From contig NZ_VOHR01000010.1 in assembly GCF_009192725.1 (NCBI RefSeq), positions 1 to 32,904 of the forward strand: a stretch of DNA of 32,904 bases. The letters are read 5' to 3'. This document shows, piece after piece, positions 829 through 29,716 of this stretch. The notes under the pieces are model-generated. The model saw only the letters and a program-made list of their open reading frames with translations. It searched no databases and had not been told where the DNA came from. Each line of letters opens with the position of its first letter. Position 1 is the first letter of the stretch. Source of the DNA: Segeticoccus rhizosphaerae (GTDB taxonomy: Bacteria > Actinomycetota > Actinomycetes > Actinomycetales > Dermatophilaceae). The position numbers and the translations under genes were made by a program.

Positions 829-1190
829 GGCGGCCGAGCTCGTCGCGGATAAGCCTCGAACTCCGGCACACTGCGGGCGCCGCCAGAGCCCAGACCGTCT
901 GCTCGAGACCGGCGACACCGATCCGACCCTGGCTACCCGAAGACCTAGCAGTAGCTAGGATTGGGCGTGGCTCGAGCAGTTCATGGATCAATCGTGCCGT
1001 CGTGAATCAGCGTCACTCTGGCGCACAGACGCGGCGAAAAGATGCGCGCACCGGCGGTAGCCCGTGCGGACGTCCAGGGTGATTCGGTCGTGATGGCCGA
1101 CGGCTCTCGTCCTGGTGACCAGCGGCACACGGGCCGGAAAATCGGGTTCGCCCGTTGGCGTGGCACTGACCGGTCTGCCATGGTGTGCGC
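829..1190. other. Non-coding junction, core-like to accessory DNA
   Basis: No convincing gene on either strand. A small perfect stem-loop (CCTAGC, loop AGTA, GCTAGG) sits at 944-959 and could be a weak terminator or structure. From here on the codon usage becomes less G/C-rich, so this may be near the left boundary of the accessory region. No attachment site or tRNA was recognised. Confidence 0.4.
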
Positions 1191-2600
1191 ATGGGCAGCA
1201 TTGATATCGGAAGGGGCGCCGACGTCAGCGATAGGACGGTCTCGGGGAGTTGGCATCTGCACGGCGTGCCCGCCGAAATGGTGATGGGCGCCTTGACGAT
1301 TGTTCCTGGTCAGGCACTTGTATTGCGACTTTCTGGCGGTTTCCCTGATTCGCGCGGGGGTGCGCGGACCATCTTCGGTCGTGCGGCGACCAAAAACTTC
1401 ACTCTGCGTCGTGCCTTCTGCTCCGCAGAAAGCACTCAAGGCGAGCTCATTACTGAGCAGGAGTGGACTTGCTACGAAGCATTTGAGGGGTGGTCCTACT
1501 TTCATGGTGACGACGACACGCTCTACGACTATGTAGATCTGCGGACGTTTCGCTTGGAAGACTGGCTCCCGGGCCCGGCTCGCGAATTCGATGCGGAGTT
1601 CGATGAATCACGTGTGTCAATCGCAATGCGCCTCCCGGGCAGAGTTAAGTTCAGTCTTCCGGGACGAATGGATCTCGACATGGGCTGGCATCGCGGGGGG
1701 GAGTCGACTGGACGCCGTGGTTCGTCTATTGAGTTGGAGCCCGCGATTACTGCACGATTGGCACAGCCATCTACTCTGGATCGGGTTTGGGCGGAGGTCG
1801 TGAGCCCGCTAACGTACTTCGTCATCTTGGCGACAGGAGGACCAGACCGTATTCGCCACATCGGTGTAGGTGAACGGGTGGACGCCGCCGCTGAGCAGGA
1901 AGATCCGGACTTTATCCCTCCGGGCTACGAATGGCTGTCTACTGGATGGAGGGGAACGCGACCTACAGCGGCAGCCGTCTATTGGGGAGAGCACTTCATC
2001 CCTTTCACCGAGTTCGAGCAACGAATGCCAGATCTGATGGAGGCTTGGTTTTCACTTTACGACAAGGCGGCATATCCTCTACAGGAATACTTCTTGAGCG
2101 ACGTCTTCGAAGGGCCGAGTGTGTTTGAAGAAGACTTCGCACGTTCCGTGCGCTGTCTGGAGGTATACCACCGAGTTACTAAGGGCGGTGAATACCTTCC
2201 TAGAGGCGTGTTCAATGATCTCGTCGGGCGCCTCAAGGACGCAGCTCATGATGTATCGGAGCGCTCATTCGTGGCTATGCGTATGAATTTCGCAAACGAA
2301 TTGACGCTCAAGCAGCGGCTGGAAGATCTCATCGCACACTCGTGTGGACTGCTCGAAATGGAAGTGGGCAGACGGCCAAAATTCGTGAGAAGAGTGGTGG
2401 ACACACGAAACAACATCACGCATCAGTCGACGACCGGCGAGTTCTTCTCGCCGCCGCAGATGGCGGAGGCGAGAGACATCCTACGGCGGATCATGAGAGC
2501 CAACATTCTTCGTGACATCGGCTTCGCCGAGGATGAAGTTCAGGCCGCGCTGGTCAGGTCTCCAGAGTATGCGCGCGGCGGCGTGCGGTACGAACTGTAG
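1191..2600 (+). CDS. ApeA-like HEPN-domain protein, probable anti-phage abortive-infection RNase
   Basis: The 469-residue protein starts with the hallmark of the ApeA N-terminal domain: SGSWHLHGVP, then a GALTI strand and an L.LRLSGGF segment, followed by a beta-rich region. The C-terminal third is helical and carries RNNITH near residue 406, an R-x4-H motif of HEPN ribonucleases. ApeA-type proteins are known from phage-defence screens, where the HEPN domain is thought to cleave RNA after infection. The start is ATG 1191 or GTG 1185, two codons upstream; neither has a clear ribosome site. Codons ending in A or T are commoner than in the metabolic genes further right, consistent with transfer. 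It stands alone except for the ATPase-TOPRIM gene 295 bases downstream on the same strand. Family assignment is by motif; activity is inferred. Confidence 0.8.
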   Translation: MGSIDIGRGADVSDRTVSGSWHLHGVPAEMVMGALTIVPGQALVLRLSGGFPDSRGGARTIFGRAATKNFTLRRAFCSAESTQGELITEQEWTCYEAFEGWSYFHGDDDTLYDYVDLRTFRLEDWLPGPAREFDAEFDESRVSIAMRLPGRVKFSLPGRMDLDMGWHRGGESTGRRGSSIELEPAITARLAQPSTLDRVWAEVVSPLTYFVILATGGPDRIRHIGVGERVDAAAEQEDPDFIPPGYEWLSTGWRGTRPTAAAVYWGEHFIPFTEFEQRMPDLMEAWFSLYDKAAYPLQEYFLSDVFEGPSVFEEDFARSVRCLEVYHRVTKGGEYLPRGVFNDLVGRLKDAAHDVSERSFVAMRMNFANELTLKQRLEDLIAHSCGLLEMEVGRRPKFVRRVVDTRNNITHQSTTGEFFSPPQMAEARDILRRIMRANILRDIGFAEDEVQAALVRSPEYARGGVRYEL

Positions 2601-2895
2601 GACTAGGGAACTGTGCCGAGCGCTTCAGTTCAAGTGTTTCAGGCTGCGAGAACTGACTCTGATCGCAAATGACATCTACTCGTACTGGCCCAAATAGTTG
2701 GCCACAGATCGACGGACTCTCGGGCTTGCTGAGTCGCACTCCGACTCAAGCAGGTGAGTCGAGCCCCCGCCCGAACGACGGCCCAGTGCGATCGGCGCAC
2801 ATGTCGCTTCGCCGAGGGCCGTCGCGAGCCTCGGGCGACGGGTGCCTAATGCACCAACTAATGTCGGGCCCGGTTAACACTAGAAGGGGATTGGA

Positions 2896-4524
2896 TTGCA
2901 CCTCAAGAATTTAACGTTCACAGGCTTCAAGCGGTTCACGGACTTCAAGGTCGACGGGATCCCGGAGACCGCCCGGCTGATCGTGCTTGGAGGACCCAAT
3001 GGATCAGGCAAGTCATCCGTGTTCGACGGGCTCAAGACCTGGCACTGGGCCCATGGCGGCCAGGGGCATGCGTGGGATGAGACTTACGGGACAAAGGTTG
3101 GTTCTCAGCCCGTTGCGTGGAGCCAACATGTCAGCGTCGAGTTTCATGAACCGATCCCGACCGGGCAAGACGAGCGAAAGCGCTTGGTATACGTGCGGAG
3201 CGCCTTCCGAAACGAGGCTGACTTCAACATTGGTGGCATCACTAGGTTGGCCTCGCCCTTGGACCAGCCAAAGGTTCGGCGCCTCATCGACACGGACGTG
3301 AGCGTTTCTGATAACTACCAGCGACTGATCCTTCAAACTCTGGACGGAATCTACAGCGACGACCTTCCCGCCGACATGACTCGGCTTCAGCTGAGAGACC
3401 GCATCATCGGTCGGGTTCGCGACGCCCTCGGTCAGGTCTTCCAGGACCTGCAATTGGAGGGGGTGGGAGGTGTAACGGTGGGTTCGGACTCTGTTGGGAC
3501 ATTCTACTTCTCGAAGGGCACGGCGAGGAGATTCCTTTACAAGTATCTTTCCGCGGGTGAGAAGGCGTGCTTCGACCTGATCCTTGACGCAGTGGTCAAG
3601 TCTGAGTATTTCGATAACTCGATCTGGTGCATCGACGAACCGGAAACGCACTTGAACACCCGTATCCAAAACACCCTTTTGGCTACCATCTTCGACCTGG
3701 TTCCAGCGAACTCACAGCTGGTCATCGCGAGCCACAGCATCGGCTTCATGCGGAAGGCGTGGGAGATTGAGAAGGCTACGCCAGGGCTGGTTGCGTTCAT
3801 CGATATGCACGGGCACGACTTCGACTCGCCTGTCTCTCTGAAGCCAGTGAAGCCTTCGCGAGAGTTGTGGACCAGAACCCTCGACGTGGCGTTGGGGGAT
3901 CTCGCCCAGTTGATGGCACCGGAACGGATCGTCCTCTGCGAGGGGCGCCCGAACCGCGGCGCCGGGGATGCCCGAGCGGAGTTCGACGCAAACTGCTACC
4001 GAACAATCTTTGCTTCGGAGTTTCCAGAGACGGACTTCATGTCCGTAGGATCGAGCAGCGAGGTGAGCCAGGACCGGCTTGAGACCGGGAAGACGATTCA
4101 AACCATCGCCTCGGGGACATCCGTGGTGCGTCTGATAGATCGAGACCTACGCAATGAGGGAGAGGTCGCGCAACTGCTCGAGGGCGGCGTGCGCGTACTG
4201 TCTCGTCGACACATCGAGGCGTTTTTGATGGACGACGAGGTCATCGACGCGCTCTGTGAACATGTGGGTGAAGCGGCCAGAGCCGGGGAGATCAAGAACA
4301 TTCGCGACGGAGCGATCGCGGCATCGGTGCAACGCGGCAACGACCCTGATGACTGGAAGAGCGCTGCGGGGGAATTCTTCATCGGCACGCGGCGCGCGCT
4401 CACACTCACCAGCTCAGGCAGCAACTGGCACGCGTTTGCAACCGAAACGCTTGCTCCGCTGTTACAGCCGGGGATGAGAGTCTACGACGACTTGAAGCAA
4501 GACATCTTCGGTCGCCGGCCCTGA
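2896..4524 (+). CDS. OLD-like AAA/ABC-type ATPase with C-terminal TOPRIM-like domain
   Basis: A 542-residue protein with an SMC/RecF-like ATPase: Walker A GPNGSGKS (33-40), an ABC signature-like LSAGEKACFDLIL (about 218-230), Walker B IWCIDEPETHL (243-253) and switch His280 in IASHS. The C-terminal part has TOPRIM-like acidic motifs, LCEG near 347-350 and LIDRD at 413-417, then VLSRRHIEAFLMDDEVI (434-450), a pattern seen in OLD nucleases and DUF4435-like proteins. Related ATPase-nuclease proteins (OLD, PARIS, Gabija A) act in phage defence by cleaving nucleic acid. It starts at TTG 2896, supported by AAGGGGA at 2884-2890; no ATG is available before Walker A. The 295 bases between it and the ApeA-like gene hold no gene but may hold its promoter. 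The insert between ATPase and TOPRIM is short, as in single-gene OLD proteins. Confidence 0.78.
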   Translation: MHLKNLTFTGFKRFTDFKVDGIPETARLIVLGGPNGSGKSSVFDGLKTWHWAHGGQGHAWDETYGTKVGSQPVAWSQHVSVEFHEPIPTGQDERKRLVYVRSAFRNEADFNIGGITRLASPLDQPKVRRLIDTDVSVSDNYQRLILQTLDGIYSDDLPADMTRLQLRDRIIGRVRDALGQVFQDLQLEGVGGVTVGSDSVGTFYFSKGTARRFLYKYLSAGEKACFDLILDAVVKSEYFDNSIWCIDEPETHLNTRIQNTLLATIFDLVPANSQLVIASHSIGFMRKAWEIEKATPGLVAFIDMHGHDFDSPVSLKPVKPSRELWTRTLDVALGDLAQLMAPERIVLCEGRPNRGAGDARAEFDANCYRTIFASEFPETDFMSVGSSSEVSQDRLETGKTIQTIASGTSVVRLIDRDLRNEGEVAQLLEGGVRVLSRRHIEAFLMDDEVIDALCEHVGEAARAGEIKNIRDGAIAASVQRGNDPDDWKSAAGEFFIGTRRALTLTSSGSNWHAFATETLAPLLQPGMRVYDDLKQDIFGRRP

Positions 4525-4605: not shown

Positions 4606-4923
4606 TCAGACTCCCGCGACGTAGGCGGTGAGGAAGTGGACGGCGTGCCGGTCGAGGTTGCCGCGAGCGCGGTCGTAGTGCTCGGTCGTGCGCGGGTCGG
4701 CATGCCGGGCCAGGATTTGCGCGTCGCGCAACGGGACGCCGGCGTCCAGCGCGTTGGTGATCGCGGCGTGCCGTAGCGAGTGCGGGCTCACGTGGCGCGG
4801 GATGCCGGCCACCTTCGCGATGCGCAGCACCATGCGGTAGACGTCCCGGCGGTCGACCGGTTTCCCTGAGGTCGGACGCAAGATCAGCGGCCCGTTGGTG
4901 CGCTCGCAGCGGCAAGCCTCTAA
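4606..4923 (-). pseudogene. Tyrosine recombinase (XerD-like integrase), C-terminal fragment
   Basis: This minus-strand remnant retains the last ~105 residues of a tyrosine recombinase: HSLRHAAITN (the H-x-x-R box), LARHADPRTTEHY with the catalytic Tyr, and its own native C-terminus ending LTAYVAGV. It begins abruptly at the equivalent of LEACR, exactly where the IS left end starts, so the N-terminal domain and first catalytic Arg are gone. It is closely related to the larger recombinase at 8770-9641 but not the other half of that gene: the two overlap over ~93 residues and differ in places (RCERTNGPL versus RGQRTTGPL, KVAGIP versus KISGIP). It is therefore the remains of a second, neighbouring integrase gene. 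Confidence 0.85.
4645..4806. repeat. Direct repeat, left copy (162 bases)
   Basis: Identical by eye over 162 bases to 8769-8930, in the same orientation. It covers the recombinase segment from HVSPHSLRHAA to the RGNLDRH end. Past 4806 the two genes drop to clearly lower identity. The sharp edge suggests gene conversion or a recombination exchange point. Confidence 0.85.
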
Positions 4924-4939
4924 CCTGAGTTGCACAGGT
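4924..4939 (+). repeat. IS terminal inverted repeat, left
   Basis: CCTGAGTTGCACAGGT, found inverted at 8754-8769. The motif is itself partly palindromic (ACCTG...CAGGT when the preceding A is included). The transposase stop codon lies immediately inside it. Confidence 0.75.
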
Positions 4940-5956
4940 TTAGTGGGTCAGTGAGTTGAGGATGTCTTGCGCGGCCGGCGATATTTGGGGCTCGGCGGTG
5001 ATGTGTTGCCCGGCGACGCTGATGGTCACTTGCTGCAGGGGCTGCAGGGTGCGCACGATGTGTCGGATGGACGATCCGGTCGCCTGCTGTAGGTAGCGGG
5101 CGATGGCCAGCGCGGTGAACACGATGGTCAGGTGCGCCTCGATCGACTCACGGGTGTGGCTGAACAGGGGCCTGGCCCTCAGGTCGGTCTTGGACATCCG
5201 GAAGGACTGCTCGACCTGCCAGAGGTCGTGGTAGGAGCCGATGACCTCGCCGGCGGGCATGACGGTTGCGGGGATGTTGGCGACGTACCCTTTGAGTCCG
5301 GCCAGCTGCCGGGCCCTGGCCAAGGCCGCCTCGTCGAGGCTGCGAGCACCGTTGGTGGTCTTGACGAACCGCGGTGTGCGGGCGGCCTGCTCGCCTGCGA
5401 TCACGGCCTTGGCCCGGTTTTCCTGCAGCGTGAGGGTCTTGCCGTCCCGGGCGGCGCGCTTGGCCGAGTAGGCCCAGACCGCTCGCCACGAGCCGGGATG
5501 CTCGCTCGGGTCCCAGACCGGTTCGGCCCGCAGGTTGGGGTTGTTTTCGCTGCGCCGGCCGCTGCGGGGAGTGATGGTGTCGACCAGTTGCCCGTCGGTG
5601 AACGCGTCGCCATGCCAGCGGAAGTGGGAGGCCAGGTCCAGCGGGGCCTTGACCGCCCGGGAGCCGACGATGAACCGCAGGTTCGCCTCGTCCAGCTCAC
5701 GCAGATTGTTCGCGGACAGCATCCCGGCGTCGGCGACCACGACCATGTCAGCCAGGTCGTGGCGGTCCTGGAAGGCCTTGATGACCGGGATGATCGTGGT
5801 GGTCTCGGCCTTGTTGCCCTCAAAGCAGCCGATCTCCAGCGGGAACCCTTCGCGGTCGACCAGCAGCCCGACCACGATCTGCGGGTCGACCCGGCGTTCC
5901 TTGGAGTAGCCGACCTTGCGCAGGTCGTCCTCCTGCTCGGCCTCGAAGTACAGCGT
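4940..5956 (-). CDS. IS1634-family transposase, 3' exon
   Basis: Residues 178-515 of the transposase, read from ACG at 5956 to TAA at 4940. It begins TLYFEAEQEDDLRKVGYS and continues through VVGLLVDREGFPLEIG, the second catalytic Asp in VVVADAGMLSA (Asp253), and a helical segment with the catalytic Glu in QVEQSFRMSKTDLRA, the IS4-like Y-R-E-K signature. Spliced to the 5' exon (8130-8660) it makes 515 residues, normal for the family. Unspliced, an internal GTG (5875) could at best give a 311-residue product without the first Asp. The protein would cut and join the IS ends. Confidence 0.9.
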   Translation of the reverse strand, partial: TLYFEAEQEDDLRKVGYSKERRVDPQIVVGLLVDREGFPLEIGCFEGNKAETTTIIPVIKAFQDRHDLADMVVVADAGMLSANNLRELDEANLRFIVGSRAVKAPLDLASHFRWHGDAFTDGQLVDTITPRSGRRSENNPNLRAEPVWDPSEHPGSWRAVWAYSAKRAARDGKTLTLQENRAKAVIAGEQAARTPRFVKTTNGARSLDEAALARARQLAGLKGYVANIPATVMPAGEVIGSYHDLWQVEQSFRMSKTDLRARPLFSHTRESIEAHLTIVFTALAIARYLQQATGSSIRHIVRTLQPLQQVTISVAGQHITAEPQISPAAQDILNSLTH

Positions 5957-5959
5957 GTT

Positions 5960-6016
5960 GGGTCGGCCCGGGGCGCGGTGGCGGCATTGCTGCTGCTCCG
6001 TTTCCCCGGGCCGCCC
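5960..6016 (-). ncRNA. Group II intron domain VI with branch-point A
   Basis: GGG (6016-6014) followed by CGGCCCGGGG pairs with CCCCGGGCCG, then a single unpaired A (5963) and CCC (5962-5960). The bulged A, seven bases from the intron 3' end, is the expected lariat branch point. Confidence 0.85.
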
Positions 6017-6019
6017 GCC

Positions 6020-6053
6020 GAACCCGCCGTGCGCCTCTCAACGCAACGGGCTC
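6020..6053 (-). ncRNA. Group II intron domain V
   Basis: Exactly 34 bases: lower helix GAGCCC-GT / GC-GGGTTC, a two-base CG bulge, upper helix TGCGTT / GGCGCA and a GAGA (GNRA) tetraloop. The catalytic triad is AGC. All elements of the splicing active site are present, so the intron looks functional at the RNA level. Confidence 0.93.
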
Positions 6054-6071
6054 TCCACGAGGTGGTGCCGG

Positions 6072-7532
6072 TCAGGCGGCTGTGGCCGGGTCGTAGGGGC
6101 TGGGGATTTTGGTCCCGCGGTACCTGTAGCGCTCGATCCGCACTTTGGTGGGGTCGAACAGGGCCACGTCCTCGGTTGCGATGGGTCTCCAACTGCCCTC
6201 GGGGCGACGGAGCCATCGTTTGACCTTGGACCAGTTCCAGCGGTGCTGCTCGCGCTGCCACGCGACGAACCGTCGCCAGGTGAAGTACCTGAGGAACGAG
6301 AAGCGTCGCCCGGCGATCGCGTGGCGGAAGTAGTACGTCCAGCCGCGCAGCGCCGCGTTGACCTCGGTGATCACCTCCGCCAAGGGCCGTGGAGACCGGC
6401 GAGGGGTCAGGGTGCGGATGGTCTGCTTGATCCTCGCGAACGCCTTGTCGGCGATGAAGACCATGCAGTACCACTTGCCGCCTCCCCGACGTTTCCTCCA
6501 CTGGATGTGGAAGCCGAGGAAGTCGATTCCCTCGCTCAGGTGCGTGACTCGGGTCTTGGTCTCGGACAATCTCAGCCCGATCCCGGCCAGCACCTCGGTG
6601 GCCTGTTCCTTCAGGGCAAGCACATCATTCCGGCTGCCGTTGGTCATGATGACGAAGTCGTCCGCGTAGCGCACGATCCGCCAGTTGCCCAGCCCGTGGT
6701 AGCGGCGTTTGGCGCGACCAGCCTGGGTCGACTGATCACCGCCTCGCGCCCACGGGGCCATGATCGCCTCGTCCAGTACGGACAGGGCGATGTTGGCCAG
6801 CAGCGGCGAGATGATCCCGCCCTGCGGGGTGCCCTCGCCGGTTGCGGCCGCAAGACCGAGTTCCTCAAGAACTCCGGCCTTGAGGAACGCGCGGACCAGC
6901 GCCACGGCCTTCTTGTCCTTGGTCCGTGCCCGCACCAGTCCCAAGAGGGCCGTGTGGTCGATGTGGTCGAAACACCCTTCGATGTCTGCGTCCAACACCC
7001 ACCGGTACCCACGGGTGGCGTAGTAATGGATCTCGGCGATCGCGTCGTGGGCTCGCCGCTTGGGCCGGAACCCGTACGAGACCGGCATGAAGTCGGCCTC
7101 GAAGATCGGCTCCAACACCATCCTGAGCGATTGCTGCACCACCCGGTCGGTCACGGTCGGGATCCCCAGCGGACGCGACTTGCCGCCCGGCTTGGGAATC
7201 AGTACCCGCCGCACCGGCGCCGGTCGATACGTTCCATCCCTCAGGCTCGCGGCGATCCCCGCAAGGAACACCCCGACCTCGCCCCGCTGGCTGATCTGGC
7301 GCACGGTGACGCCATCGACCCCAGCGGTGCGGGCCCCTTTGTTGCGTGCCACGTGCTCCCAGGCCACCAACAGGAAGTCCGGGTGTGACACCAGGTTGAA
7401 CAAGTCCCCGAACCGCGTGTCGCGGTCGGTCTTGGCCCACCGGTGATACTTGATCTGCGTCCGCGCTACCCGCCCGGTGATGATGTCCATCAACGAGGGA
7501 CCGTCGGAGTTCACCAACGTCTCTTGCGTCAT
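6072..7532 (-). CDS. ltrA: Group II intron reverse transcriptase/maturase
   Basis: 486 residues. It starts at ATG 7532, 6 bases after a strong AGGAGGT site on the minus strand; the longer frame upstream is intron RNA. The reverse-transcriptase domain shows fingers motifs (RNKGARTAGVDGVT, VLIPKPGGKSRPLGIPT), the first catalytic Asp in WVLDADIEGCFDHIDH (Asp181), TPQGGIISPLLANI, and the active-site YADD at 289-292 in RIVRYADDFVIM. The thumb/maturase domain X follows (VNAALRGWTYYFRHA...RYFTWRRFVAW). No HNH endonuclase domain follows; the C-terminus ends soon after the maturase region, so retrohoming would rely on a nicked or replicating target. The protein binds the intron RNA, helps it splice and copies it into DNA. 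Confidence 0.96.
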   Translation of the reverse strand: MTQETLVNSDGPSLMDIITGRVARTQIKYHRWAKTDRDTRFGDLFNLVSHPDFLLVAWEHVARNKGARTAGVDGVTVRQISQRGEVGVFLAGIAASLRDGTYRPAPVRRVLIPKPGGKSRPLGIPTVTDRVVQQSLRMVLEPIFEADFMPVSYGFRPKRRAHDAIAEIHYYATRGYRWVLDADIEGCFDHIDHTALLGLVRARTKDKKAVALVRAFLKAGVLEELGLAAATGEGTPQGGIISPLLANIALSVLDEAIMAPWARGGDQSTQAGRAKRRYHGLGNWRIVRYADDFVIMTNGSRNDVLALKEQATEVLAGIGLRLSETKTRVTHLSEGIDFLGFHIQWRKRRGGGKWYCMVFIADKAFARIKQTIRTLTPRRSPRPLAEVITEVNAALRGWTYYFRHAIAGRRFSFLRYFTWRRFVAWQREQHRWNWSKVKRWLRRPEGSWRPIATEDVALFDPTKVRIERYRYRGTKIPSPYDPATAA

Positions 7533-8129
7533 CGCAGCACCTCCTATCCATCCTCGCTGCCGCCCTTCCCGATGTGGCCGGCTCTCCCGGCCTCGCAGTA
7601 CTACGGCGGCTCCGCCAGCCCTTGATCCGGTCGGCGGACGACGCACCCAGCCACCCCGACCGCGCTGGCGGCGCGATTCACGATGGCAGGACCAAGGGCC
7701 TTCCCGTGTTCACTCGCTGTTCGCTCACCGAAGGAGGCACCCGGCTATCTGCCTGCGGCTCTCGTCGACGACTACTCCGTAGTCCTTCGCCGCCGACCCG
7801 CCCGGGACATGTAACTCGTGTCCCGGACGGTCCACCCACCCATCACTGCGGCAGATGACCGACCGCGCCCGCCCCATATCCACTGGGTTTAAGGCGGTTG
7901 TACGTCAAGACAGGTGATGACACCGGTTCCTCGCGTATACCTCTTCGGCATGCTCGCCGCGCTCACGCCATCCAACGGTTCTGACGCGACACGACTTCGT
8001 CAGGGCTGCTCCCGCCCTCCCGGACGTCTCTCCGGTCAGGCTGCCCCCAGCTTCAAACTCCCTGCCACGGCAGGGAATCAGGCAAAGGTCTCTCACCTCC
8101 ACTCGAACAACAAGCGCCTCACGGCGCAC

Positions 8130-8660
8130 CGTCACGTCATAGAGCACCAGCGACACGTCGCCGCTGCTGGCCGCGTGCTCGAAGCAGGCCGTGGCGATCT
8201 GGTCGCGGTACTTCTTGTGCTGGCAGCGTTTGAGGGCCGCCACGAACGAGTTGCGGTGCTTGGCCGCCACGCCCAAGTTGGTCAGAACCCGGCCCGCGTC
8301 GCGCACCGAGGTGGGCTCGGTGACCCGGGCCAAGACCAGCTGGAAGAAGGCTTCGTCCTTGATCACGTGGAACCCGAGCCGATGCCACGCGGACTGGATC
8401 ACCTCGATCAACAGGCGCGAGGTGGTGGCCTGCACCAGCGCCGCACCCGAGCCCGGTCCATCCTGCTCGAGCTCGACCGGCAGCATGCCTTGACCCGGAT
8501 ACAACCTCTCGCGGCCAACCTGCATCAACGCGGCCAGCTCCGCCTCGGTATGGGCTGAGCCCAGGTGCTCCAGCACCCGATCGCGACCACCGCGCCGCTC
8601 GGTCAGTTGCACCGCCGTCGCGCCCGAGGCGGTCTTCACCTTCCGCAGAAATGGCGCCAC
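8130..8660 (-). CDS. IS1634-family transposase, 5' exon
   Basis: The first 177 residues, from GTG 8660 to the intron border. The N-terminal region has the family's PFLRKVKTASGATAVQ opening and helical segments such as VIQSAWHRLGFHVIKDEAFFQLVLARV. It ends VSLVLYDVT, placing the first catalytic Asp (Asp175) two codons before the splice junction. Exon length is exactly 531 bases (177 codons), so the intron sits between codons. Reading through into the intron adds about 75 unrelated residues before a stop, so the unspliced product would be inactive. Confidence 0.88.
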
Positions 8661-8753
8661 GGCATCACACTACCGACCCGTTAGTGGGTCACCGAACCCC
8701 CACACAAGCCCGTGACCAGCACAAACGCCGGCCGACTCACGAAAAGCGTCCAC

Positions 8754-8769
8754 ACCTGTGCAACTCAGG
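8754..8769 (-). repeat. IS terminal inverted repeat, right
   Basis: Reverse complement of the left terminal repeat, 16 of 16 bases. About 90 non-coding bases separate it from the transposase GTG. It cuts the flanking recombinase gene just before its final ~9 codons. Confidence 0.75.
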
Positions 8770-8930
8770 TGCCGGTCGAGGTTGCCGCGAGCGCGGTCGT
8801 AGTGCTCGGTCGTGCGCGGGTCGGCATGCCGGGCCAGGATTTGCGCGTCGCGCAACGGGACGCCGGCGTCCAGCGCGTTGGTGATCGCGGCGTGCCGTAG
8901 CGAGTGCGGGCTCACGTGGCGCGGGATGCC
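8769..8930. repeat. Direct repeat, right copy (162 bases)
   Basis: Identical to 4645-4806 and in the same orientation, beginning at the IS tip. Homologous exchange between the two copies would delete the IS and intron and regenerate one recombinase C-terminus. Confidence 0.85.
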
Positions 8931-9641
8931 TGAGATCTTGGCGATCCGCAGCACCATCCGGTAGACGTCCCGGCGGTCGACCGGCTTACCGGAGGTTGGG
9001 CGCAAGATCAACGGCCCGGTGGTGCGCTGGCCGCGGCAGGCCTCCAGGACGCGCAGCACCGGTACGGTCAGCGGCATGGTGGCGGGCTTGGCGCCCTTGC
9101 CGACCAGGTGCAGCACGCGGTAGCCACGTAGCGTCTCGTGGTAGTCCTCGACCCGGACCGCTGCAGCTTCAGAAGCGCGCAGCGCGTTGATGCCTAGCAG
9201 GTAGGCCAGCGCGCCGTGGTGCACGGACAGCGTCTGTGCCACCTGGAGGAACCGGATCAGCTCGAGCCGGTCCAGGCCCTGGGTACGCGACTCGTCCGAG
9301 TGGATCTTCGGCAACCGGGCGTACACGGCGGGGTCGGCGGCGATGCGCCCGTCGATGTGGGCGAACCGGAAGAAGCCCCGCACCGCGTGCATCATCGTGT
9401 TGACCGAGGACACCTGCAGCCCGTCGTCGCCGAGCTGTCGGATGTACAGCTCGATGTGCGCTCGCTGGATCCCGACCAGCGGGTCCAGGCCGCTGGTCTC
9501 ACACCAGGTGAACCACCGGCGCAGCTGGTAGGCATACAGCGTGTGGGTGTGCCCGGTGTATCGGGCCAGGTAGGACACGGCCGCGAGTTGCGCGGGTGTC
9601 ATCGCATCGGGCTGGAACGGAAGGAGCGTTGTGCTGGTCAT
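8770..9641 (-). pseudogene. Tyrosine recombinase (XerD-like integrase), lacking its last residues
   Basis: The start is ATG 9641 after GGAGG on the minus strand. The N-terminal SAM-like core-binding domain (about 15-105, with YARLPKIHSDESRTQG as linker) and the catalytic domain are present: Arg in LRASEAAAVRVEDY, HSLRHAAITN, and HADPRTTEHY with the nucleophilic Tyr. The IS right end replaces the last ~9 residues; the frame then runs on into IS DNA to 8670, adding about 30 foreign residues (LSCTGVDAF...). All catalytic residues remain, so activity cannot be excluded, but the C-terminal tail that docks neighbouring subunits is altered. Together with the fragment at 4606 it shows that two related integrases once stood here. 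Confidence 0.85.
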
Positions 9642-10220
9642 GGCCGCCTCCGGCGATCTGGCGGCCACACCTCGATCGCGGACCGCCGCACACGGCGAGG
9701 TCACCGGGCATGACGCTAGCCCCACCAGGCGACGCAGTTGGACTGCTCGCCGCCACCTCTTGAGACCGCCACGCGGCTGATAGACGCGGTGGCCGAGACA
9801 CCCGATGACATTCGGAGCGTACCGTGAGGAGCACTGGCCGTCCGGGCGGTAAGGGATAGGGGCCGGTCCCGTCGAGAGGCGAGAGAAGTGCTCGGAAGTA
9901 GACCCGGCCTGTCCGCCAGGCTCACGTTTGCGCGATCTGCTTAAGAGTTCGCGGCGGTATGAAGCTTCTGTTCCCGCCAGCTGCGTTGTGAGGGCGGTGG
10001 GACGGAAGTTCTGGGTAGTGTCAAGATGGCAGCGTGACTTCGGACACGCGGATGGTGGCTCTGGGCTTCGGCAAGTTCGCGCGTGCGGACCGCATCTTCG
10101 CGCTCGAGCGATTCACCGGAGAGGAACGGGGTGATGGACGCCGCACCCTGGGTGTGAGTGTCTTGAAGCCCCTTCGCGACCGAACAAGTCAGGATGGCCA
10201 GGTAGGCAGGAGGTCTTGTC
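9642..10220. other. Non-coding stretch between recombinase and DrHyd-type operon
   Basis: No convincing gene. The right end should hold the promoter of the plus-strand operon; a clear ribosome site (AGGAGGT, 10208-10214) sits 6 bases before its ATG. No integration site or repeat was recognised. Confidence 0.4.
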
Positions 10221-11597
10221 ATGGCAGGTGTCCGCTCCATGGTCTTCGTCGTGATGCCATACGGCGAGAAGAAGGACCCCCACAGCGGTCGCACGATCGA
10301 CTTCGACCACATCTGGAATGAAGCATTTCGGCCTGCCATCGATGCTGCGGGCATGGATGCAGTGCGGGCAGATGAGGAGACGAGCGGCGGTTTCGTGCAT
10401 GTCGCAATGTTCGAGCGATTGCTGCTTGCGGAGGTTGTACTGGCCGACTTGACGCTCGCAAGCCCGAATGTCATGTACGAGCTCGGCATCCGACACGCGG
10501 CTCGACCAAGAGCAACAGTTCCTGTCTTCGCACGCACGCAGCCGTTGCCCTTTGACCTCTCGCCGATCCGTGCCGTCCCGTACCGGTTGGAGCGTGACGG
10601 GACTCTCGCTGACGGATCGCGAGCTGCGCTAGTGCATGAACTCGAGAGCCGTCTCGCGGATGCTTTGGCGCACCACAGGCCGGACAGTCCTCTATTTCAG
10701 GTAATCGCGCGATATCCCGGAGTTAATCTGCCGCACGACGTCACTGAGTCCTTTCAAAGCCGCGTGAACGCACTATCAAATCTGAGCAACAAGATAAGGT
10801 CCACGCCAGCCCGCCTTTCCCAAGACGAAGCGCTAGCGGCGTTAAGTCGCCTGCAGGCCGAGGTGTTGTCGGAGGTCGGGACCCCTACAGAACTCCTCCT
10901 GGATCTGCTCTTGGCCTACCGAGACATCGAGGCATACGACAACATGGTGTCCCTGTGGAGGAGCTTCCCGGAGCCCGTTGGCAGGAGCCCCTCGGTACTT
11001 CAAGTCATCGCCTTCGCGCTTAATAGACGAGGGGGTGATGGCGACGTGGAGGAGGCGATCGAGATCCTTGAGGGGATTGTGGAAAGTTACGGTCCCGACC
11101 CCGAGACGCTCGGTCTGCTCGGCCGAGTTCACAAAGACCGGCATCAATCCCTTGTGGGTAATGACCAGTTGCGCGCAGAGGCTGCGCTTGATGCCGCGAT
11201 AGACGCATATGAGCGCGGGTTCCAGGCAGATATGCGCGATTACTATCCGGGCATCAATGCAATAACTTTGTTGCTGTTGAAGGGTACCGAGGAGGGCTAT
11301 CAGCGTGCCCGCAGCCTCTCACCGGTGGTCGCCTTCGCGGTCGCAGGGCGTGGCGGCTTGGAGTCGACAGACTACTGGGATCTCGCGACCATCCTGGAGT
11401 TGTCCGTAGTGAACCTCATGCGTGAGAATGCTGCAGCGGCGATGCGTCGCCTACTGTATGTCGGGGGTCTTCCGTGGCAGTGGCGCACGACCCGTGAAAA
11501 TCTTGAACGGCTTCAGGAGGCGCACCGGCAACGCAGCCTTGCCGAGCCTTGGATCGGTGAAGTGGTGGAGCGGTTGCGTACAGAAGAGGGTCGATGA
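10221..11597 (+). CDS. DrHyd/nucleoside-deoxyribosyltransferase-like domain fused to a TPR-like (TRAFs-binding-type) region
   Basis: 458 residues. The first ~110 form a Rossmann-like domain: MVFVVMPYG strand and loop, DADEE-type acidic loop (RADEETSGGFVH, 49-60), VVLADLT (72-78) and PNVMYELGIRHA (82-93) with Glu87 at the catalytic position of nucleoside 2-deoxyribosyltransferases and of many TIR-like NAD-cleaving domains. From about 130 to the end the protein is helical, with repeat-like segments (DPETLGLLGRVHKDRH, LDAAIDAYERGFQADM), matching the bacterial TRAFs-binding/TPR-S type seen in ASK-kinase-like architectures. In known conflict systems such DrHyd domains are proposed to act on nucleotides. 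The next gene overlaps by ATGA and has the same kind of domain, so the two probably work as one system. The exact activity is inferred. Confidence 0.8.
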   Translation: MAGVRSMVFVVMPYGEKKDPHSGRTIDFDHIWNEAFRPAIDAAGMDAVRADEETSGGFVHVAMFERLLLAEVVLADLTLASPNVMYELGIRHAARPRATVPVFARTQPLPFDLSPIRAVPYRLERDGTLADGSRAALVHELESRLADALAHHRPDSPLFQVIARYPGVNLPHDVTESFQSRVNALSNLSNKIRSTPARLSQDEALAALSRLQAEVLSEVGTPTELLLDLLLAYRDIEAYDNMVSLWRSFPEPVGRSPSVLQVIAFALNRRGGDGDVEEAIEILEGIVESYGPDPETLGLLGRVHKDRHQSLVGNDQLRAEAALDAAIDAYERGFQADMRDYYPGINAITLLLLKGTEEGYQRARSLSPVVAFAVAGRGGLESTDYWDLATILELSVVNLMRENAAAAMRRLLYVGGLPWQWRTTRENLERLQEAHRQRSLAEPWIGEVVERLRTEEGR

Positions 11598-12124
11598 GTC
11601 AGCCTTCAGACGCCAAGGCGAGTGTCGGCTGCGCGCCGGGTAACAACTGGACATCGGAATCACGTCATGGCAGTAACATAGTCAATACCCTTGAGTTGGG
11701 GGCTCCGGAGGGTGGTGAGCGACCGCGGTTCACGATTTTCGCGGCAATGCCCTTTGACCCAACCTTCGAGGACGTGTTCTATGTGGCGATTGAGTCGGCG
11801 GCACGCGCACTCGGTGGACGAGGCGTACGAGTGGACAAGGTCATGCACGGTGGCGATGCAGTGGTTGAGACTCAACGCGAAATTAGCCAATGCAAGGCCG
11901 TGGTGGCTGATATATCGATGAACGAACCGGACGTGCTCTACGAGCTCGGCTTGGCACATGCCATGGAGAAGCCGACAGTACAGATTTGTCGAACGGCCCA
12001 CCGGGATCTACCCTTCATGGTTCGGAATCGGGAGACGCTGCTCTATGGAGTGGGACGCACTCACCTCCTTGGTTTGCATCTGACGGCCTATCTGAAGAGG
12101 ATTTTGGCGAAGGTGGACGGATGA
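11594..12124 (+). CDS. Stand-alone DrHyd/nucleoside-deoxyribosyltransferase-like (TIR-like) protein
   Basis: 176 residues. After a ~45-residue low-complexity N-terminus come FTIFAAMPFD (47-55), a helix, VVETQREISQCKAVVADIS (90-108) and PDVLYELGLAHAMEKP (112-127), with Glu117 where the deoxyribosyltransferase nucleophile or TIR-type catalytic Glu lies. It overlaps the upstream gene by four bases (ATGA) and is therefore coupled to it. It has no TPR region or membrane segment, so it may be the effector with the larger protein as sensor or scaffold, or the reverse. True nucleoside salvage enzymes of this fold are shorter at the N-terminus and not usually paired this way, so defence or signalling is more likely. 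Confidence 0.78.
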   Translation: MSQPSDAKASVGCAPGNNWTSESRHGSNIVNTLELGAPEGGERPRFTIFAAMPFDPTFEDVFYVAIESAARALGGRGVRVDKVMHGGDAVVETQREISQCKAVVADISMNEPDVLYELGLAHAMEKPTVQICRTAHRDLPFMVRNRETLLYGVGRTHLLGLHLTAYLKRILAKVDG

Positions 12125-12183
12125 CTGCAAAGGCAGATGAGTTTGACTGAGTTCAATTTCCTTATTGCTGGTGCAACTGGCGA

Positions 12184-12204
12184 CAGCCGCAGATGTTGCG
12201 GCTG
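12184..12204. terminator. Stem-loop between convergent operons
   Basis: Perfect 8-base stem CAGCCGCA / TGCGGCTG with loop GATGT, 60 bases after the stop of the DrHyd-type gene and 184 bases beyond the end of the convergent minus-strand TIR operon. A U-tract is missing, as is common in actinobacteria. The rest of 12125-12387 holds no gene. Confidence 0.55.
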
Positions 12205-12387
12205 ATGCGATGTAGGAGCGTGGCCTCCGGTCCTCGTGGCCGTTCTAGCGATGCCAGGAGTTGTCCGCGGCTCACGCTGAAAGAGGCCCTGGTGGAAGGA
12301 TATGCCGGCTGGAGCTGCCGGCGCGCTACGGGGCCCGGATCGCCTCGCTGCGCCAGGAGAGCACGAGAAGATCTGTTCACCGGAAGC

Positions 12388-13122
12388 CTAGGCCGGGCGG
12401 CCACCATGCGGGCCAGCCCAAGTCCCAATCATGGCCTCGACGAGGAACTGGAGTGGCGGCGCATCGCCTTCAAGTAGCAACACCTCGGTAGCAAGCTCAT
12501 GTTGCTGGGGCTCCGGGCGGTCCGTCCACTCGACCGCGGTGATTTCGTCGGCCATCGATAGCAACTGTCGGTCGGCGTCTCTGATGTCGTCGGTCTGAAG
12601 GAGGAGGCCATGGTGTCGTCCCGGCCCCGGAGCCTGTTGCGTATCTGCGTTGATGAGCTGTAGCCGCACAAGCCCTGTATCGGCGAATGCGGCCGCGAAC
12701 GGCTCCGTTCGGCGCTCGTGGGCGTCACGATTTCTCCTGCCAGCGTTCGTATACCCGACCAGTTCATCCTCCGACGTAGTCAGCACGTACAGCAACGGCT
12801 CAGTCAGAGGGTCTCCGGGCTCGGCGTCGAGTGGCACAGCATACGTTTGCGCTATTCCCCACACGAACGGTAGCAACTGTTCGTCGAGAGTCATGGCGAC
12901 TGCTCCGCCCCTGGCGAACACCGAGTGCAGCACGGTGCTGACGGTCGGTTCCCACATCCAGTGCCTGAACGACACCGGCCCAGAGTCATCAGTGTTCCGT
13001 CGGCGACCGTCTGGCTCACCGTCCCCGGCGCGTTCAACGAAGGGGTCGGGTGAACCGGCCACAAGTATGACAGTGAACGCTTCGCCGCCAGGTTCGCGGT
13101 GCGCGGCATACGGGGAGCTCAT
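12388..13122 (-). CDS. Unrecognised partner of the TIR protein
   Basis: 244 residues, starting at ATG 13122, which overlaps the TIR gene stop as ATGA; the longer frame upstream lies inside the TIR gene. I do not recognise a family. Visible features: an N-terminal strand FTVILVAGSPDP, a helix-strand unit with VLHSVFARGGAVAMTLDEQLLPFVWGIAQTY (about 74-104), then LLYVLTTSEDELV, and strands VRLQLINADT and ATEVLLLEGDAPPLQF near the C-terminus. The alternation of strands and helices is compatible with a Rossmann-like or SLOG-like ligand-sensing fold, but this is only a guess. Context makes it the sensor, inhibitor or second subunit of the TIR protein. No membrane segment or signal peptide. Confidence 0.72.
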   Translation of the reverse strand: MSSPYAAHREPGGEAFTVILVAGSPDPFVERAGDGEPDGRRRNTDDSGPVSFRHWMWEPTVSTVLHSVFARGGAVAMTLDEQLLPFVWGIAQTYAVPLDAEPGDPLTEPLLYVLTTSEDELVGYTNAGRRNRDAHERRTEPFAAAFADTGLVRLQLINADTQQAPGPGRHHGLLLQTDDIRDADRQLLSMADEITAVEWTDRPEPQQHELATEVLLLEGDAPPLQFLVEAMIGTWAGPHGGRPA

Positions 13123-14291
13123 GGAGTCGCCACCCACCGCGCGAGTGCAACAAGCGTCCCCTCTGCGTACGCGGCAGCGCTTGCCCGCGTGTGGATCCAA
13201 TTCCGGTCGGTTCGCTTGATCTCCAAGACCGGTAGGGGCGAGTAGGTGGCGACCCGAAGCCCCATGGCTTTAGCGGTCTCGCAAGTTCGTCGCAGTTGCC
13301 GAACCTCGACAGGGCGCTCATGGATGCCAATCAAGTAGCCGTTCGCTCGGATGTTCGCCCCCTCCACGCTCGTTACAACCCCTTGCGACCGCAGGGCCGC
13401 GAGCACGGATTGCAGCCGTACCTCCCGTTGTGCGGACAGACGGAGTCGGTGCTGCTCGGCAATGAAGGGGCCGGCGCTTTTAGGCGGGCCGACGTAACGA
13501 GCGGAGGCTGCTCTGAAGGCGTACGGGCCGCCCGTGGGTTGCACTGCGATCACGCCTGCCCCGCGGGCAAGCGCGAGACCGAGTTCCTTCTTCACCCACC
13601 TGGATTTGTACGAGTTAGCCGTCTCGAGGACGACGACGATGCCGGCGTCCACCAGTGCGTCTCGAAGAACGTCGTCCCAGATAGAGCCAGCAGGGTTGCT
13701 GCGGGTATCCAAGTAGACGGAAAAGCGCTGATCGGCCAAGGCCTCCGCAAGGTCCAATGCGTGAGCCGCATCGGCGCGGGAGTACGATAGGAAGACCTTT
13801 CGCTCCTCGAGGTCTGCGCCGGCGGCGGCCAGAATGTCCTCAACCGACTCGCCGACGTCTGCGACGAAGCGTACGGCTTGGAACGGCCGGGCGCTTGGGG
13901 GCAGCACCGTGATCGCTTCTGCTGCGGGTAACAAGCCAAGGGCGCGTGCATCGGCTTGAGCCAAGAAGGTCTGTACTGACGATTCCAACGCCGAACTCCA
14001 AGAGCTGGCGCCGCTGACCGCAACAACGACGAGTTGCGTGACCCCGGAAAGAGAGTGTGCACGGCAGCCGGTGATACACCGGCCACCGGCATTACCTCCG
14101 CAACCACCCTCGGTGCCCCCTTGTACTTGTAGAGCGGCTCGCAGTGCATCAGCGACCCGGATAGACATGGCAAGGGACGGCGAGATAACGGTGATTCTGC
14201 AGGACCGGTCGAGCGGGAGATCACCGTACGACCAGCACCCGTGCAGGTCGCCGTGCTCGTCGGCGACCTGCACGATGGCCTCGACGGCCAT
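13119..14291 (-). CDS. TIR-domain protein, probable NAD-degrading defence effector
   Basis: 390 residues from ATG 14291, preceded by GGAGGAGGC on the minus strand. A central TIR domain spans about 164-255: KVFLSYSRADA (first strand and box), YLDTRSNPAGSIWDDVLRDAL (BB-loop region), AGIVVVLET, and SRWVKKELGLA with the catalytic-type Glu236. The N-terminal ~160 residues (RITVISPS, LVVVAVSG, AVRFVADV strands) and the C-terminal ~130 (GVVTSVEGANIRANGYLIG...) are unassigned and may sense a signal or form filaments. In Thoeris and related systems TIR domains cleave NAD on infection. The gene is coupled to the unknown gene at 12388-13122. The first codons have very high GC3, supporting this start. 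Confidence 0.82.
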   Translation of the reverse strand: MAVEAIVQVADEHGDLHGCWSYGDLPLDRSCRITVISPSLAMSIRVADALRAALQVQGGTEGGCGGNAGGRCITGCRAHSLSGVTQLVVVAVSGASSWSSALESSVQTFLAQADARALGLLPAAEAITVLPPSARPFQAVRFVADVGESVEDILAAAGADLEERKVFLSYSRADAAHALDLAEALADQRFSVYLDTRSNPAGSIWDDVLRDALVDAGIVVVLETANSYKSRWVKKELGLALARGAGVIAVQPTGGPYAFRAASARYVGPPKSAGPFIAEQHRLRLSAQREVRLQSVLAALRSQGVVTSVEGANIRANGYLIGIHERPVEVRQLRRTCETAKAMGLRVATYSPLPVLEIKRTDRNWIHTRASAAAYAEGTLVALARWVATP

Positions 14292-14655
14292 GAGCGCCTC
14301 CTCCGCGCGTTCGTCGACGGAACGCCCACTCCGTCAACGGCTCGCACCTGCACAATGCGTCAGCCAGCGGCATCGTTACGAGCTGATGATAGCGAAGGCC
14401 GGGAAGCCTCGATGGTACGCGATCGCAGTGACGGAGGATACCTCCCAACGCACCTAAAATCGGTCGCTTGCCGGCGCCTCCCTTGGTCATCCAAACGACC
14501 TGATGTTCCGCAAACCACGCGAAACGCTCCTCTTGGGCGCAAAAAGAAATAGGCCACGCTCGGGCGGCGCTCCGAATGGACGGGCCAGAACATGTCGAGT
14601 AGCACCAACTCAGTGGCCTTCCACTCTGCAGTTTCAGTTCGAGAATTGCGTCCAT
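14221..14655 (-). pseudogene. Possible frameshifted gene upstream of the TIR gene
   Basis: One frame opens at ATG 14655 with MDAILELKLQSGR and later gives AWFAEHQVVWMTKGGAGKR and GLRYHQLVTMPLADAL, which read like real protein. In between, a neighbouring frame is better (ATELVLLDMFWPVHSERR, PSVAYFF, high GC3). Two frame changes, near 14620 and at a T-run near 14555, would join these into one protein. The last ~70 bases overlap the TIR gene and do not look coding. It could be a decayed gene, a sequencing error, or chance; no family is recognised. Confidence 0.35.
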
Positions 14656-14670
14656 AATGTACCAAGAGCC

Positions 14671-14704
14671 GGAATTTCCACCCACTCCGCGGAGTGGAAG
14701 TTCC
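14671..14704. promoter_or_regulatory. Long imperfect palindrome
   Basis: A perfect CCACTCCG/CGGAGTGG core is extended, after a four-base bulge on one side, by GGAATTT pairing with AAGTTCC. It lies between the RipA-like gene and the start of the TIR-side genes on the minus strand. It could be an operator, a terminator for the RipA-like gene, or an attenuator. Confidence 0.45.
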
Positions 14705-14787
14705 GCCAGCACCGTACGAGCGCGTGTAGTACATTTCGGGCGCTCGCGTTCGTCCTTCGCTCCCGCACGGCGGTCTGCCGGTCGAAC

Positions 14788-15405
14788 TTAAGTGGTAAAC
14801 AGAGCAGTTAGGAAGCCGACGACGTAGGTTAGGGCGAAGAGCGCGGGAAGCCACTGCTCAATGTGTGTCATCGGCCAGTACAGCGACTTGTCCTTTCCCT
14901 GGCCCAGCGCCGTCCACTCGCCATCCGAAAATGCACGGGCAGGCAGGCGCCGCTCCAACGTTGCGATCACCGCGAACTTGCCCGAGTTTAGTTGTCGATA
15001 AGAGCGCACAAGCCAGAACCAAGCGGCGCATGTCGAAACCACAAGGACGAGTGGGAACAGAAGCAGTGTCGGTGAAGCGGCGGGCTTATCCTTCCAAAAG
15101 ACACCGATAACGGTGAGAACGGCGGCCTGCAACGTCAAGAAGAAGGTGTTGGCGAGAGCACGGCGCGCACTGACTCGATCTGCCATCTCGACACACAGTT
15201 TATACTGGTCAAGGATTGCAGCCTGATAGCGGTCCTTCGCGTCCACATAATCCTCAGCGCTGAGATCCTTATTCCACAGCGTCGGTTGGATGTCCTCTAC
15301 CCATTTTGGTGTCGACGTGCCGAAGAGTTTGTTCCACACGTTAGGCGGCGTCATAGTCTGGGCGTCCCCGGTAGGCTGAGGGTCGGGCGAGACGACATCC
15401 TTCAT
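14788..15405 (-). CDS. RipA-like three-TM integral membrane protein
   Basis: 205 residues with start ATG 15405 (a TTG at 15423 is also possible; the frame stays open further upstream but has no other start). After a ~90-residue cytoplasmic-looking N-terminus come TM1 (about TFFLTLQAAVLTVIGVFW), TM2 (TLLLFPLVLVVSTCAAWFW) and TM3 at the C-terminus (LPALFALTYVVGFLTALF). Between TM2 and TM3 is the loop LVRSYRQLNSGKFAVIATLE then RAFSDGEWTALGQGKD, the pattern I associate with RipA-family (octameric) membrane proteins. Its function is unknown; beside TIR and DrHyd genes it may be a membrane effector or a passenger. It is transcribed towards the TIR operon, about 500 bases upstream of it, with the palindrome in between. 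Confidence 0.65.
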   Translation of the reverse strand: MKDVVSPDPQPTGDAQTMTPPNVWNKLFGTSTPKWVEDIQPTLWNKDLSAEDYVDAKDRYQAAILDQYKLCVEMADRVSARRALANTFFLTLQAAVLTVIGVFWKDKPAASPTLLLFPLVLVVSTCAAWFWLVRSYRQLNSGKFAVIATLERRLPARAFSDGEWTALGQGKDKSLYWPMTHIEQWLPALFALTYVVGFLTALFTT

Positions 15406-15655
15406 GTCCAGACCTGCTTTCAAGGATTGTAGTTCGATCTCTCGGGCCGCGGTGACACAGACGAGTGGGACGCCAGCGAATGTATCCGATCGTCTGCATC
15501 CAAGCCTGATGATGCAGCGCTTGGGGATGCGAGCTTGGAGCAGCCATCTCCGCTTTAGCTTGGATCTCTTGCTGGAGCAGGTACCGTTCTCGATGGGCTC
15601 CAGACATCGTCGCCAACATCTCTCGTTCTTCTTCCGAGAGAGTAGCCCGAATCAC
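15341..15655 (-). CDS. Doubtful small ORF overlapping the RipA-like gene
   Basis: A GTG-started frame of 104 residues. Its first half is helical and charged (LSEEEREMLATMSGAHRER, YLLQQEIQAKAEM) and looks like genuine protein, but the second half is arginine-rich and looks like a shadow. The RipA-like frame becomes the better one from about 15480 on (GVPLVCVTAAREIELQSL). One frame change near 15500 would fuse them into a longer protein. Either a small upstream gene, or the true N-terminus of the membrane protein with a frameshift. Confidence 0.3.
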   Translation of the reverse strand: MIRATLSEEEREMLATMSGAHRERYLLQQEIQAKAEMAAPSSHPQALHHQAWMQTIGYIRWRPTRLCHRGPRDRTTILESRSGHEGCRLARPSAYRGRPDYDAA

Positions 15656-19444: not shown

Positions 19445-20247
19445 GGTGTGCTCCGCAGGCGCGCGCCGGGGACCGCCGCGAGGAGCTCCTTGGTGTAGTC
19501 GTGCTGCGGGTCTTGCAGGATCTGCTCGGTGGGTCCCTGCTCGACCAGATGACCTTGGTACAGCACCGCGACCCGGTCTGCCATCTGTCGGGCCAGGCTG
19601 ACGTCGTGGGTGATGAACAGCAGGCTCAGGCCGCGGTCGCGGCGCAGACCTGCGAGCACCTGCAGCACCTGCGCCCGCACCGAGATGTCCAGTGCCGACA
19701 CCGGCTCGTCGCAGATCAGCACGGACGGAGCCAGGGCCATCGCCCCGGCGATGACGACCCGCTGCCGTTCACCCCCGGAGAGCTGGTGTGGGTAGCGGTG
19801 CCAGTAGGTCTCCGGCGGCCGCAGTCCGGCCGCGTCGAGAGCGGCCAGGCCGATGGCGACACGTTGCGGTCCGGGCCGGCCGACGCGGTGGATGTCCAGC
19901 CCGGCTGACACCTGTCGGCTCACCGGGCTGCGCGGGTTCAGGGACTGGTAGGGGTCTTGGAAGATGATCTGGACCTCCCGCCGGAAGGAGGTGCGGTCGA
20001 CCGAACGCAGCTCCTGTCCCCGGTAGCGGACCGAGCCGCTTGCCGGCTGTATGAGCCCGAGCAGTGCCCGGCCGAGTGTGGACTTGCCGCTCCCGGACTC
20101 GCCGACGAGCGCCAGTGTTTCCCCTTGGTTCCACCTCAGGCTGACACGATCGAGAGCCTTCAGGTAGCGGCCGGCTCGGGCTTGTCGCCGTCGCATCCGG
20201 TAGCGCACGGTCAGCTCGTCGATCTCGAACAGGGCGTCGTCAGTCAT
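19441..20247 (-). CDS. Peptide-type ABC importer ATPase (OppF/DppF-like)
   Basis: 268 residues. ABC ATPase with Walker A GESGSGKS (49-56), Q-loop IIFQDPYQSLNPR, signature LSGGERQRV, Walker B VLICDEPVSALD and switch ITHDVSL. The N-terminal TVRYRMRRR-type extension and Q-loop DPYQSLNPR are typical for the F subunit. It is shorter than most OppF proteins (about 320) and lacks the usual C-terminal Cys-containing tail. I chose ATG 20247, which overlaps the stop of the D subunit by 8 bases. It powers the importer together with its D-type partner on the cytoplasmic face. Confidence 0.93.
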   Translation of the reverse strand: MTDDALFEIDELTVRYRMRRRQARAGRYLKALDRVSLRWNQGETLALVGESGSGKSTLGRALLGLIQPASGSVRYRGQELRSVDRTSFRREVQIIFQDPYQSLNPRSPVSRQVSAGLDIHRVGRPGPQRVAIGLAALDAAGLRPPETYWHRYPHQLSGGERQRVVIAGAMALAPSVLICDEPVSALDISVRAQVLQVLAGLRRDRGLSLLFITHDVSLARQMADRVAVLYQGHLVEQGPTEQILQDPQHDYTKELLAAVPGARLRSTP

Positions 20248-22245: not shown

Positions 22246-22252
22246 TGGTCCC

Positions 22253-23215: not shown

Positions 23216-23263
23216 GACGATCCGATCGGGACGGGACCCGGCCGGACCGGCTTGGTCGGGCGT

Positions 23264-28241: not shown

Positions 28242-28299
28242 CCACAGCCCGAGTTGGTCCTTGCAGCCGGTATGCCGCTCTGCCAGTTGGCCCCGCCGA

Positions 28300-29712: not shown

Positions 29713-29716
29713 ACAC

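Follow-up and report, generated by a model that had tools for sequence, protein, structure and literature searches.

The DNA analysed here, a 32,904-nt window from Segeticoccus rhizosphaerae, carries a group II intron within the transposase gene of an IS1634-family insertion sequence (IS). Very probably, this intron belongs to a lineage of endonuclease-less mobile introns that retrohome to a single site, the Thr-Thr codons of LYDVT-TLYFE (the hyphen marks the insertion point), located at the first Asp of the DDE residues of IS1634-family transposases. Judging from sequence comparison, introns of this lineage home into these active-site codons repeatedly and without co-conversion.

The intron and its maturase

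The complete intron has 2,173 nt and occupies 5957..8129 on the reverse strand, reading from 8129 to 5957; it starts with GTGCG and ends with GACCCAAC, and its borders follow from the sequence, Rfam and the junctions of relatives. At the curated gathering threshold Rfam has no match in the window, and domains V and VI are found in E-value mode only: RF00029 matches 6055-5957 with 37.3 bits (E = 4e-5, gathering cut-off 40), terminating exactly at the last intron base, which is the proposed 3' splice site. Domain V (6020..6053, reverse strand) consists of 34 nt with an AGC triad and a GAGA loop. Domain VI (5960..6018, reverse strand) has a predicted branch-point A bulge at 5963, the seventh base from the 3' end and invariant across 13 aligned introns. 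Compensatory changes are seen in 17 of the 37 domain V/VI base pairs of the aligned introns. The Rfam match and the conserved fold thus agree with the earlier note, which had described both domains in these terms.

Introns of class IIC are devoid of the EBS2-IBS2 interaction and are sited after terminator hairpins. In the present case both EBS2 and EBS3 covary with their targets, the site is coding and domain V has AGC, so that the RNA looks IIB-like rather than IIC.

The intron encodes a reverse transcriptase/maturase of 486 residues (6072..7532, reverse strand), with AGGAGG ahead of its start. It scores 381.5 bits against TIGR04416 (cut-off 300) and contains the RVT_1 (PF00078) and GIIM (PF08388) domains. 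The YADD motif pointed out earlier is present in this ORF, and the profile search found no endonuclease domain in the maturase, as had also been proposed.

The interrupted insertion sequence

The host element, assigned by its sequence and by NF033559, spans 4924..8769 on the reverse strand (3,846 bp, or 1,673 bp without the intron) and has 16-bp terminal inverted repeats CCTGAGTTGCACAGGT at 4924-4939 and 8754-8769. Its transposase frame, read from 8660 to 4940, is broken at 8130/8129 and resumes at 5956. Exon 1 (8130..8660, reverse strand) provides 177 codons ending in LYDVT, and exon 2 (4940..5956, reverse strand) provides 338 codons and a stop, beginning with TLYFE; both were delimited by profile match and by the joined frame. 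Excision of 5957-8129 does join DVT to TLYFE as claimed at the outset, with the flanks GACGTGACG and ACGCTGTACTTC fusing in frame into a 515-aa ORF that runs through VLYDVT-TLYFE. The IS1634 transposase model NF033559 gives 268.7 bits for exon 2 alone (cut-off 100) and 58.4 bits for the 5' half, and PF01609 matches the joined protein from residue 171 onward. The putative DDE residues D175, D253 and E426 are invariant in all seven transposases compared; a profile search of the PDB matched no transposase structure on which to map them. The intron had been placed directly after the first catalytic Asp; it indeed lies at the Asp motif, but two codons past D175. From the sequence we infer that the intron is spliced and the exons are ligated in vivo.

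Inspection of the sequence at the ends of the element (4924..8769) reveals no target-site duplication. Its flanks (4606-4939 and 8769-9725) are pieces of two tyrosine-recombinase (XerC/D-like) genes with a 295-bp stretch in common at 91% identity, the left piece missing the 5' part and the right one the 3' end. Two partial paralogous integrase genes together with the lack of a target duplication suggest recombination between two IS copies inserted in them; the IS in the window is probably a rearranged copy. Defence-like genes surround it at 1185-4524 and 10221-15423: those for an ApeA-like HEPN protein (1185-2600), an AAA ATPase most like PADLOC AriAB (2896-4524), a TPR-S/TRAF-binding-like protein (10221-11597), a nucleoside-deoxyribosyltransferase-like protein with a weak match (11594-12124), a TIR protein with ThsB-like matches (14291-13119) and an 8xMP membrane protein (15423-14788). 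Further on, at 16044-31111, ORF translations point to an apparent catabolic/uptake cluster that includes FMN oxidoreductase-like, aminotransferase-like, oligopeptide ABC transporter, prolyl-oligopeptidase-like, Lrp/AsnC-like regulator, acyltransferase-like and amidase genes.

Relatives share the insertion site

To find relatives, maturases were scanned for in 84,980 species genomes and also in plasmids, and DNA searches covered about 790 genomes of the order and class. Including the window, 15 loci, mainly from Actinomycetota, have an intron at the same site, and these introns are roughly 78-93% identical to that of the window. They come from Tessaracoccus (L003), Mycobacterium sp. 141 (L004), two Propionibacterium MAGs (L005 and L010), Pseudonocardia parietis (L006), an Acidobacteriaceae assembly (L007), Rhodococcus plasmids (L049-L052), G213 (L056, with exon 2 broken) and G492 (L095), whereas only 3' remnants are left in a Spirochaetia MAG (L045) and in G033 (L063). 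In L010 and L006 the 3' end is decayed. All preserved junctions read DV(T/S)-TLYFE or a close variant (DVT-TLHFE in L050, DCT-TLHFE in L095) and lie in IS1634 transposases. Across the same-site loci the exons (about 50-76% identity) are far more diverged than the introns. No relatives of the intron were found in viral contigs. In the maturase tree, 12 same-site maturases form one clade (support 100/100), and its sister clade (94/93) occupies varied other sites.

The host element also occurs without the intron. In Rhodococcus pyridinivorans DNHP-S2 there is a filled IS on plasmid 1 (L052) and an intron-less one on plasmid 2 (L089), the latter aligning with the exons of the former at 95% identity and without a break across the junction. 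Eight intron-less plasmid copies are 90-95% identical to the exons of filled elements, and where a differing sequence at the junction would have spoken against the proposed intron borders, they match the proposed junction exactly. Domains V and VI, the maturase, the EBS pairings described below and these empty sites all agree with the initial description of a complete group II intron within a transposase gene. Among 395 genomes of the class, 15 hold a total of 30 exact empty sites, as against two full-length introns of the same-site clade; therefore, the site is usually empty. The earlier suggestion that the target is present in all IS copies holds insofar as the same codon junction recurs in 15 loci, but "all" is too strong, and filled sites are rare compared with empty ones.

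Target recognition

To locate the guide sequences, 11 introns inserted at different sites were scanned for alignment columns that pair with their own exon better than with the exons of others, using 1000 permutations. Covariation identifies EBS1 as AGUUAC (intron nt 314-319; 7811..7816, reverse strand), which pairs with IBS1 GTGACG in the Val-Thr codons (8130..8135), and EBS2 as ACGUAC with the core CGUA (nt 225-230; 7900..7905), which pairs with IBS2 CTATGA in the Leu-Tyr-Asp codons (8137..8142), all on the reverse strand; neither signal was reached in any permutation (0/1000 for each). EBS3, a U at nt 383 (7747, reverse strand), faces IBS3, the A that opens exon 2 (5956, reverse strand); in 10 of the 11 introns this column complements the first base of the 3' exon, against 7 of 11 for the next-best column. 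A hairpin of roughly 12 bp presents EBS1 in its terminal loop, and a location in the loop region was seen in 12 of 12 same-site introns examined. An earlier candidate for EBS1, UGUCAU at 7917-7922, could pair with GUGACG, but the corresponding bases in relatives mismatch the targets there; covariation places EBS1 at 7816-7811 instead.

Within the same-site clade, the EBS2 core CGUA pairs with TAYG, its G facing either base at the wobble position of Tyr, and EBS1, whose form here is AGU(U/C/A)AC, base-pairs with the invariant GT.AC bases of the Val-Thr codons. Almost every copy leaves -1 unpaired with EBS1, and about half of the copies pair at -4. With about 4-5 of 6 pairs, and a lower number in some copies, the EBS1-IBS1 helix is weaker than that of the sister clade. 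Of the varying target positions, most (-1, -4 and -10) are third positions of codons. There are departures: in L004 and L006, where Ser replaces Thr, -3 varies too, L005 lacks the pair at -6, and L095 deviates more strongly. In Rhodococcus sp. LW-XY12 an identical intron RNA follows GTC ACG in one copy and GTG ACC in the other. Taken together, the pairing positions across copies indicate that most of the tolerated differences are at third codon positions, and since the varying positions are loosely paired or wobble-faced, one guide could serve divergent IS1634 elements. It is tempting to go further and propose that the guide is adapted to a target defined at the protein level, pairing mainly with codon positions fixed by the transposase active site while skipping or wobbling at most of the varying third positions, so that one RNA could enter any IS1634 element across many bacteria. 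This proposal is tentative, and we give it slightly less than an even chance.

Possible effect on the host element

A separate matter, compatible with retrohoming, is whether the intron acts mainly as a brake on the IS, poor splicing in vivo inactivating the transposase. RmInt1, which is endonuclease-less as well, ligates exons at <1% in vivo, and its insertion has been read as limiting ISRm2011-2 (PMC4238363). The unpaired -1 base might fit such a role. So might the single copy of the IS in the draft genome from which the window comes; the intron, too, is present there once, and there is no empty site. On the other hand, the spliced transposase frame is kept open in most loci that have both exons. 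Differences between maturases are concentrated at third codon positions, and intron-bearing transposases likewise differ mainly there; this bias points to purifying selection on both, although much of the exon divergence may predate the insertion. We regard a braking role as possible, but somewhat less probable than its absence.

Evidence for repeated homing

The most direct evidence that the intron homes comes from LW-XY12, in which the introns of plasmids pLW1 and pLW3 are 100.0% identical over 2,176 bp while the 5' exons are only 69.7% identical and the 3' exons, as far as both extend, about 82%. In strain PD04 (L051) the intron of LW-XY12 recurs at 99.9% identity. Similarly, the introns of the window and L056 are 93.0% identical, compared with 60.6% for their 5' exons. 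The 82% figure comes from comparing the first 420 bases of the shortened 3' exon of L050 with L089, an element of the L049 type. Finding the same site occupied in quite different IS copies implies that the intron homes to the site and is not just carried along.

Since the targets are homologous genes, the intron might instead owe its movement chiefly to DNA recombination or gene conversion between them. The 3' flanks of the window and L056, which are 92% identical over 85 bp, would fit such exchange, but this stretch encodes the most conserved motif of the protein. In the LW-XY12 pair exon mismatches start at -1 and -4 on the 5' side and at +4 and +7 on the 3' side, and there is no shared flank tract beyond what protein conservation accounts for. 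Differences this close to the junction argue for RNA-templated insertion without co-conversion, and the precision is what RNA-templated reverse splicing would predict. Together with the maintenance of EBS/IBS pairing, this makes recombination as the main route very unlikely.

Even less credible is a single entry into an ancestral IS1634 element followed by spread only with the IS, by transposition and horizontal transfer: although one ancient insertion would place all copies in one IS family at one site, as observed, this history is refuted, unless both LW-XY12 plasmid assemblies err alike, by the identical introns in elements about 70% identical, by the conflict between the intron and host transposase trees, with intron-bearing elements dispersed between empty ones, which takes at least seven changes, and intron-less copies nested among filled ones, and by the AU test, which rejects the transposase groupings {L049-L052} (p = 6.5e-4) and {window, L056} (p = 6e-49). 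Hitchhiking as the sole means of spread was rejected on the identical introns in divergent elements and the tree conflict.

Retrohoming thus remains the preferred explanation, although the weaker EBS1-IBS1 pairing of the clade, the low occupancy of the site and the single copy of intron and IS in the draft genome weigh against it. Its steps can be sketched. The transposase pre-mRNA would be transcribed, and the maturase would aid splicing of the intron and presumably remain bound to it as an RNP. EBS1, EBS2 and EBS3 would then recognise the Tyr-Asp-Val-Thr codons and the following Thr codon of another IS1634 copy, the intron RNA would reverse-splice into the target DNA, and the reverse transcriptase would copy it. 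Because there is no endonuclease, copying would probably take place at the replication fork, by analogy with RmInt1. The IS would transpose the intron, and the intron would home among IS copies. The double mobility that the earlier note ascribed to an IS-nested retroelement gains support from the 15 shared junctions, the identical introns in divergent elements and the tree conflict, the movement of the IS itself being predicted.

Relation to known introns

The closest parallel is RmInt1 (IIB3/class D), which lives in ISRm2011-2 and its close relatives in Sinorhizobium meliloti; RmInt2 lives in ISRm17. Without an endonuclease, RmInt1 homes to ISRm2011-2 and related elements, the transposase of which requires splicing (PMC4238363, PMC5894124, PMC4496777). 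The present clade resembles RmInt1 in having an endonuclease-less maturase, a home in an IS transposase gene whose product would depend on splicing and, as far as can be deduced, spread among IS copies by retrohoming. However, the host of RmInt1 belongs to the IS630 family rather than IS1634, and RmInt1 is reported from Sinorhizobium/Rhizobium, whereas the window clade extends over several actinobacterial families with single loci in other phyla, and its host exons go down to about 50-60% DNA identity. The pSymA copy of RmInt1 (L138, S.me_1021_pA_1), recognised by its published coordinates and IBS1/EBS1, has a maturase 33-37% identical and falls far outside the same-site clade on a very long branch; in the maturase tree the window clade does not group with class D (RmInt1, L138).

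The sister clade contains the intron of R. jostii RHA1 pRHL2 (L054, 54% maturase identity), which is plausibly Rh.js.I1. According to the available part of Toro and Martinez-Abarca 2013 (PMC3552965), ORF variety g1 includes Rh.js.I1 and Ca.ac.I1, and the position of the pRHL2 intron suggests that the present lineage may belong to this variety, with which it shares the lack of an endonuclease domain and an actinobacterial distribution. The same part of that paper makes no mention of homing to the IS1634 active site. Sister-clade introns, roughly 55% identical, are often found in transposase genes in the sense orientation: IS1380 (L054), IS5 (L055), IS3 (L059 and L065) and IS256-type (L104). Of L053-L055, L059, L065 and L104, the majority possess matching EBS pairs of their own. 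L057 runs antisense to a tyrosine integrase gene, and L009 lies inside an unassigned gene. Specialisation on transposases may predate the IS1634 site. Two Streptomyces introns (L017 and L018) share nearly all of their aligned domain I. Their EBS1 loops differ (TGGCAG versus TGACAG), and their targets differ correspondingly (CCGCCA and GTGTCA), which suggests recent retargeting.

Other IS1634 elements (NF033559) have the profile and the motif in common with the window copy, which differs in bearing a group II intron. A full-text literature search, judged by titles and the beginnings of abstracts, returned no association between group II introns and IS1634. This lifestyle is known from one rhizobial intron, RmInt1, and the present lineage and its target appear to be undescribed.

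The lineage offers a natural experiment on target choice and retention by endonuclease-less group II introns: identical RNAs are found in targets with differences at known positions, a single strain has both filled and empty copies, and sister-clade guides covary with other sites. The choice of target, active-site codons whose third positions the guide largely bypasses, merits experiment, and the intron is a candidate for a programmable group II intron for GC-rich actinobacteria. It becomes testable whether such introns brake IS elements outside rhizobia or merely ride them, and whether they lock on functionally constrained codons so that targets cannot escape. If the guide is indeed adapted to the protein-level target, the intron would parasitise the only part of the host transposon with no freedom to mutate away.
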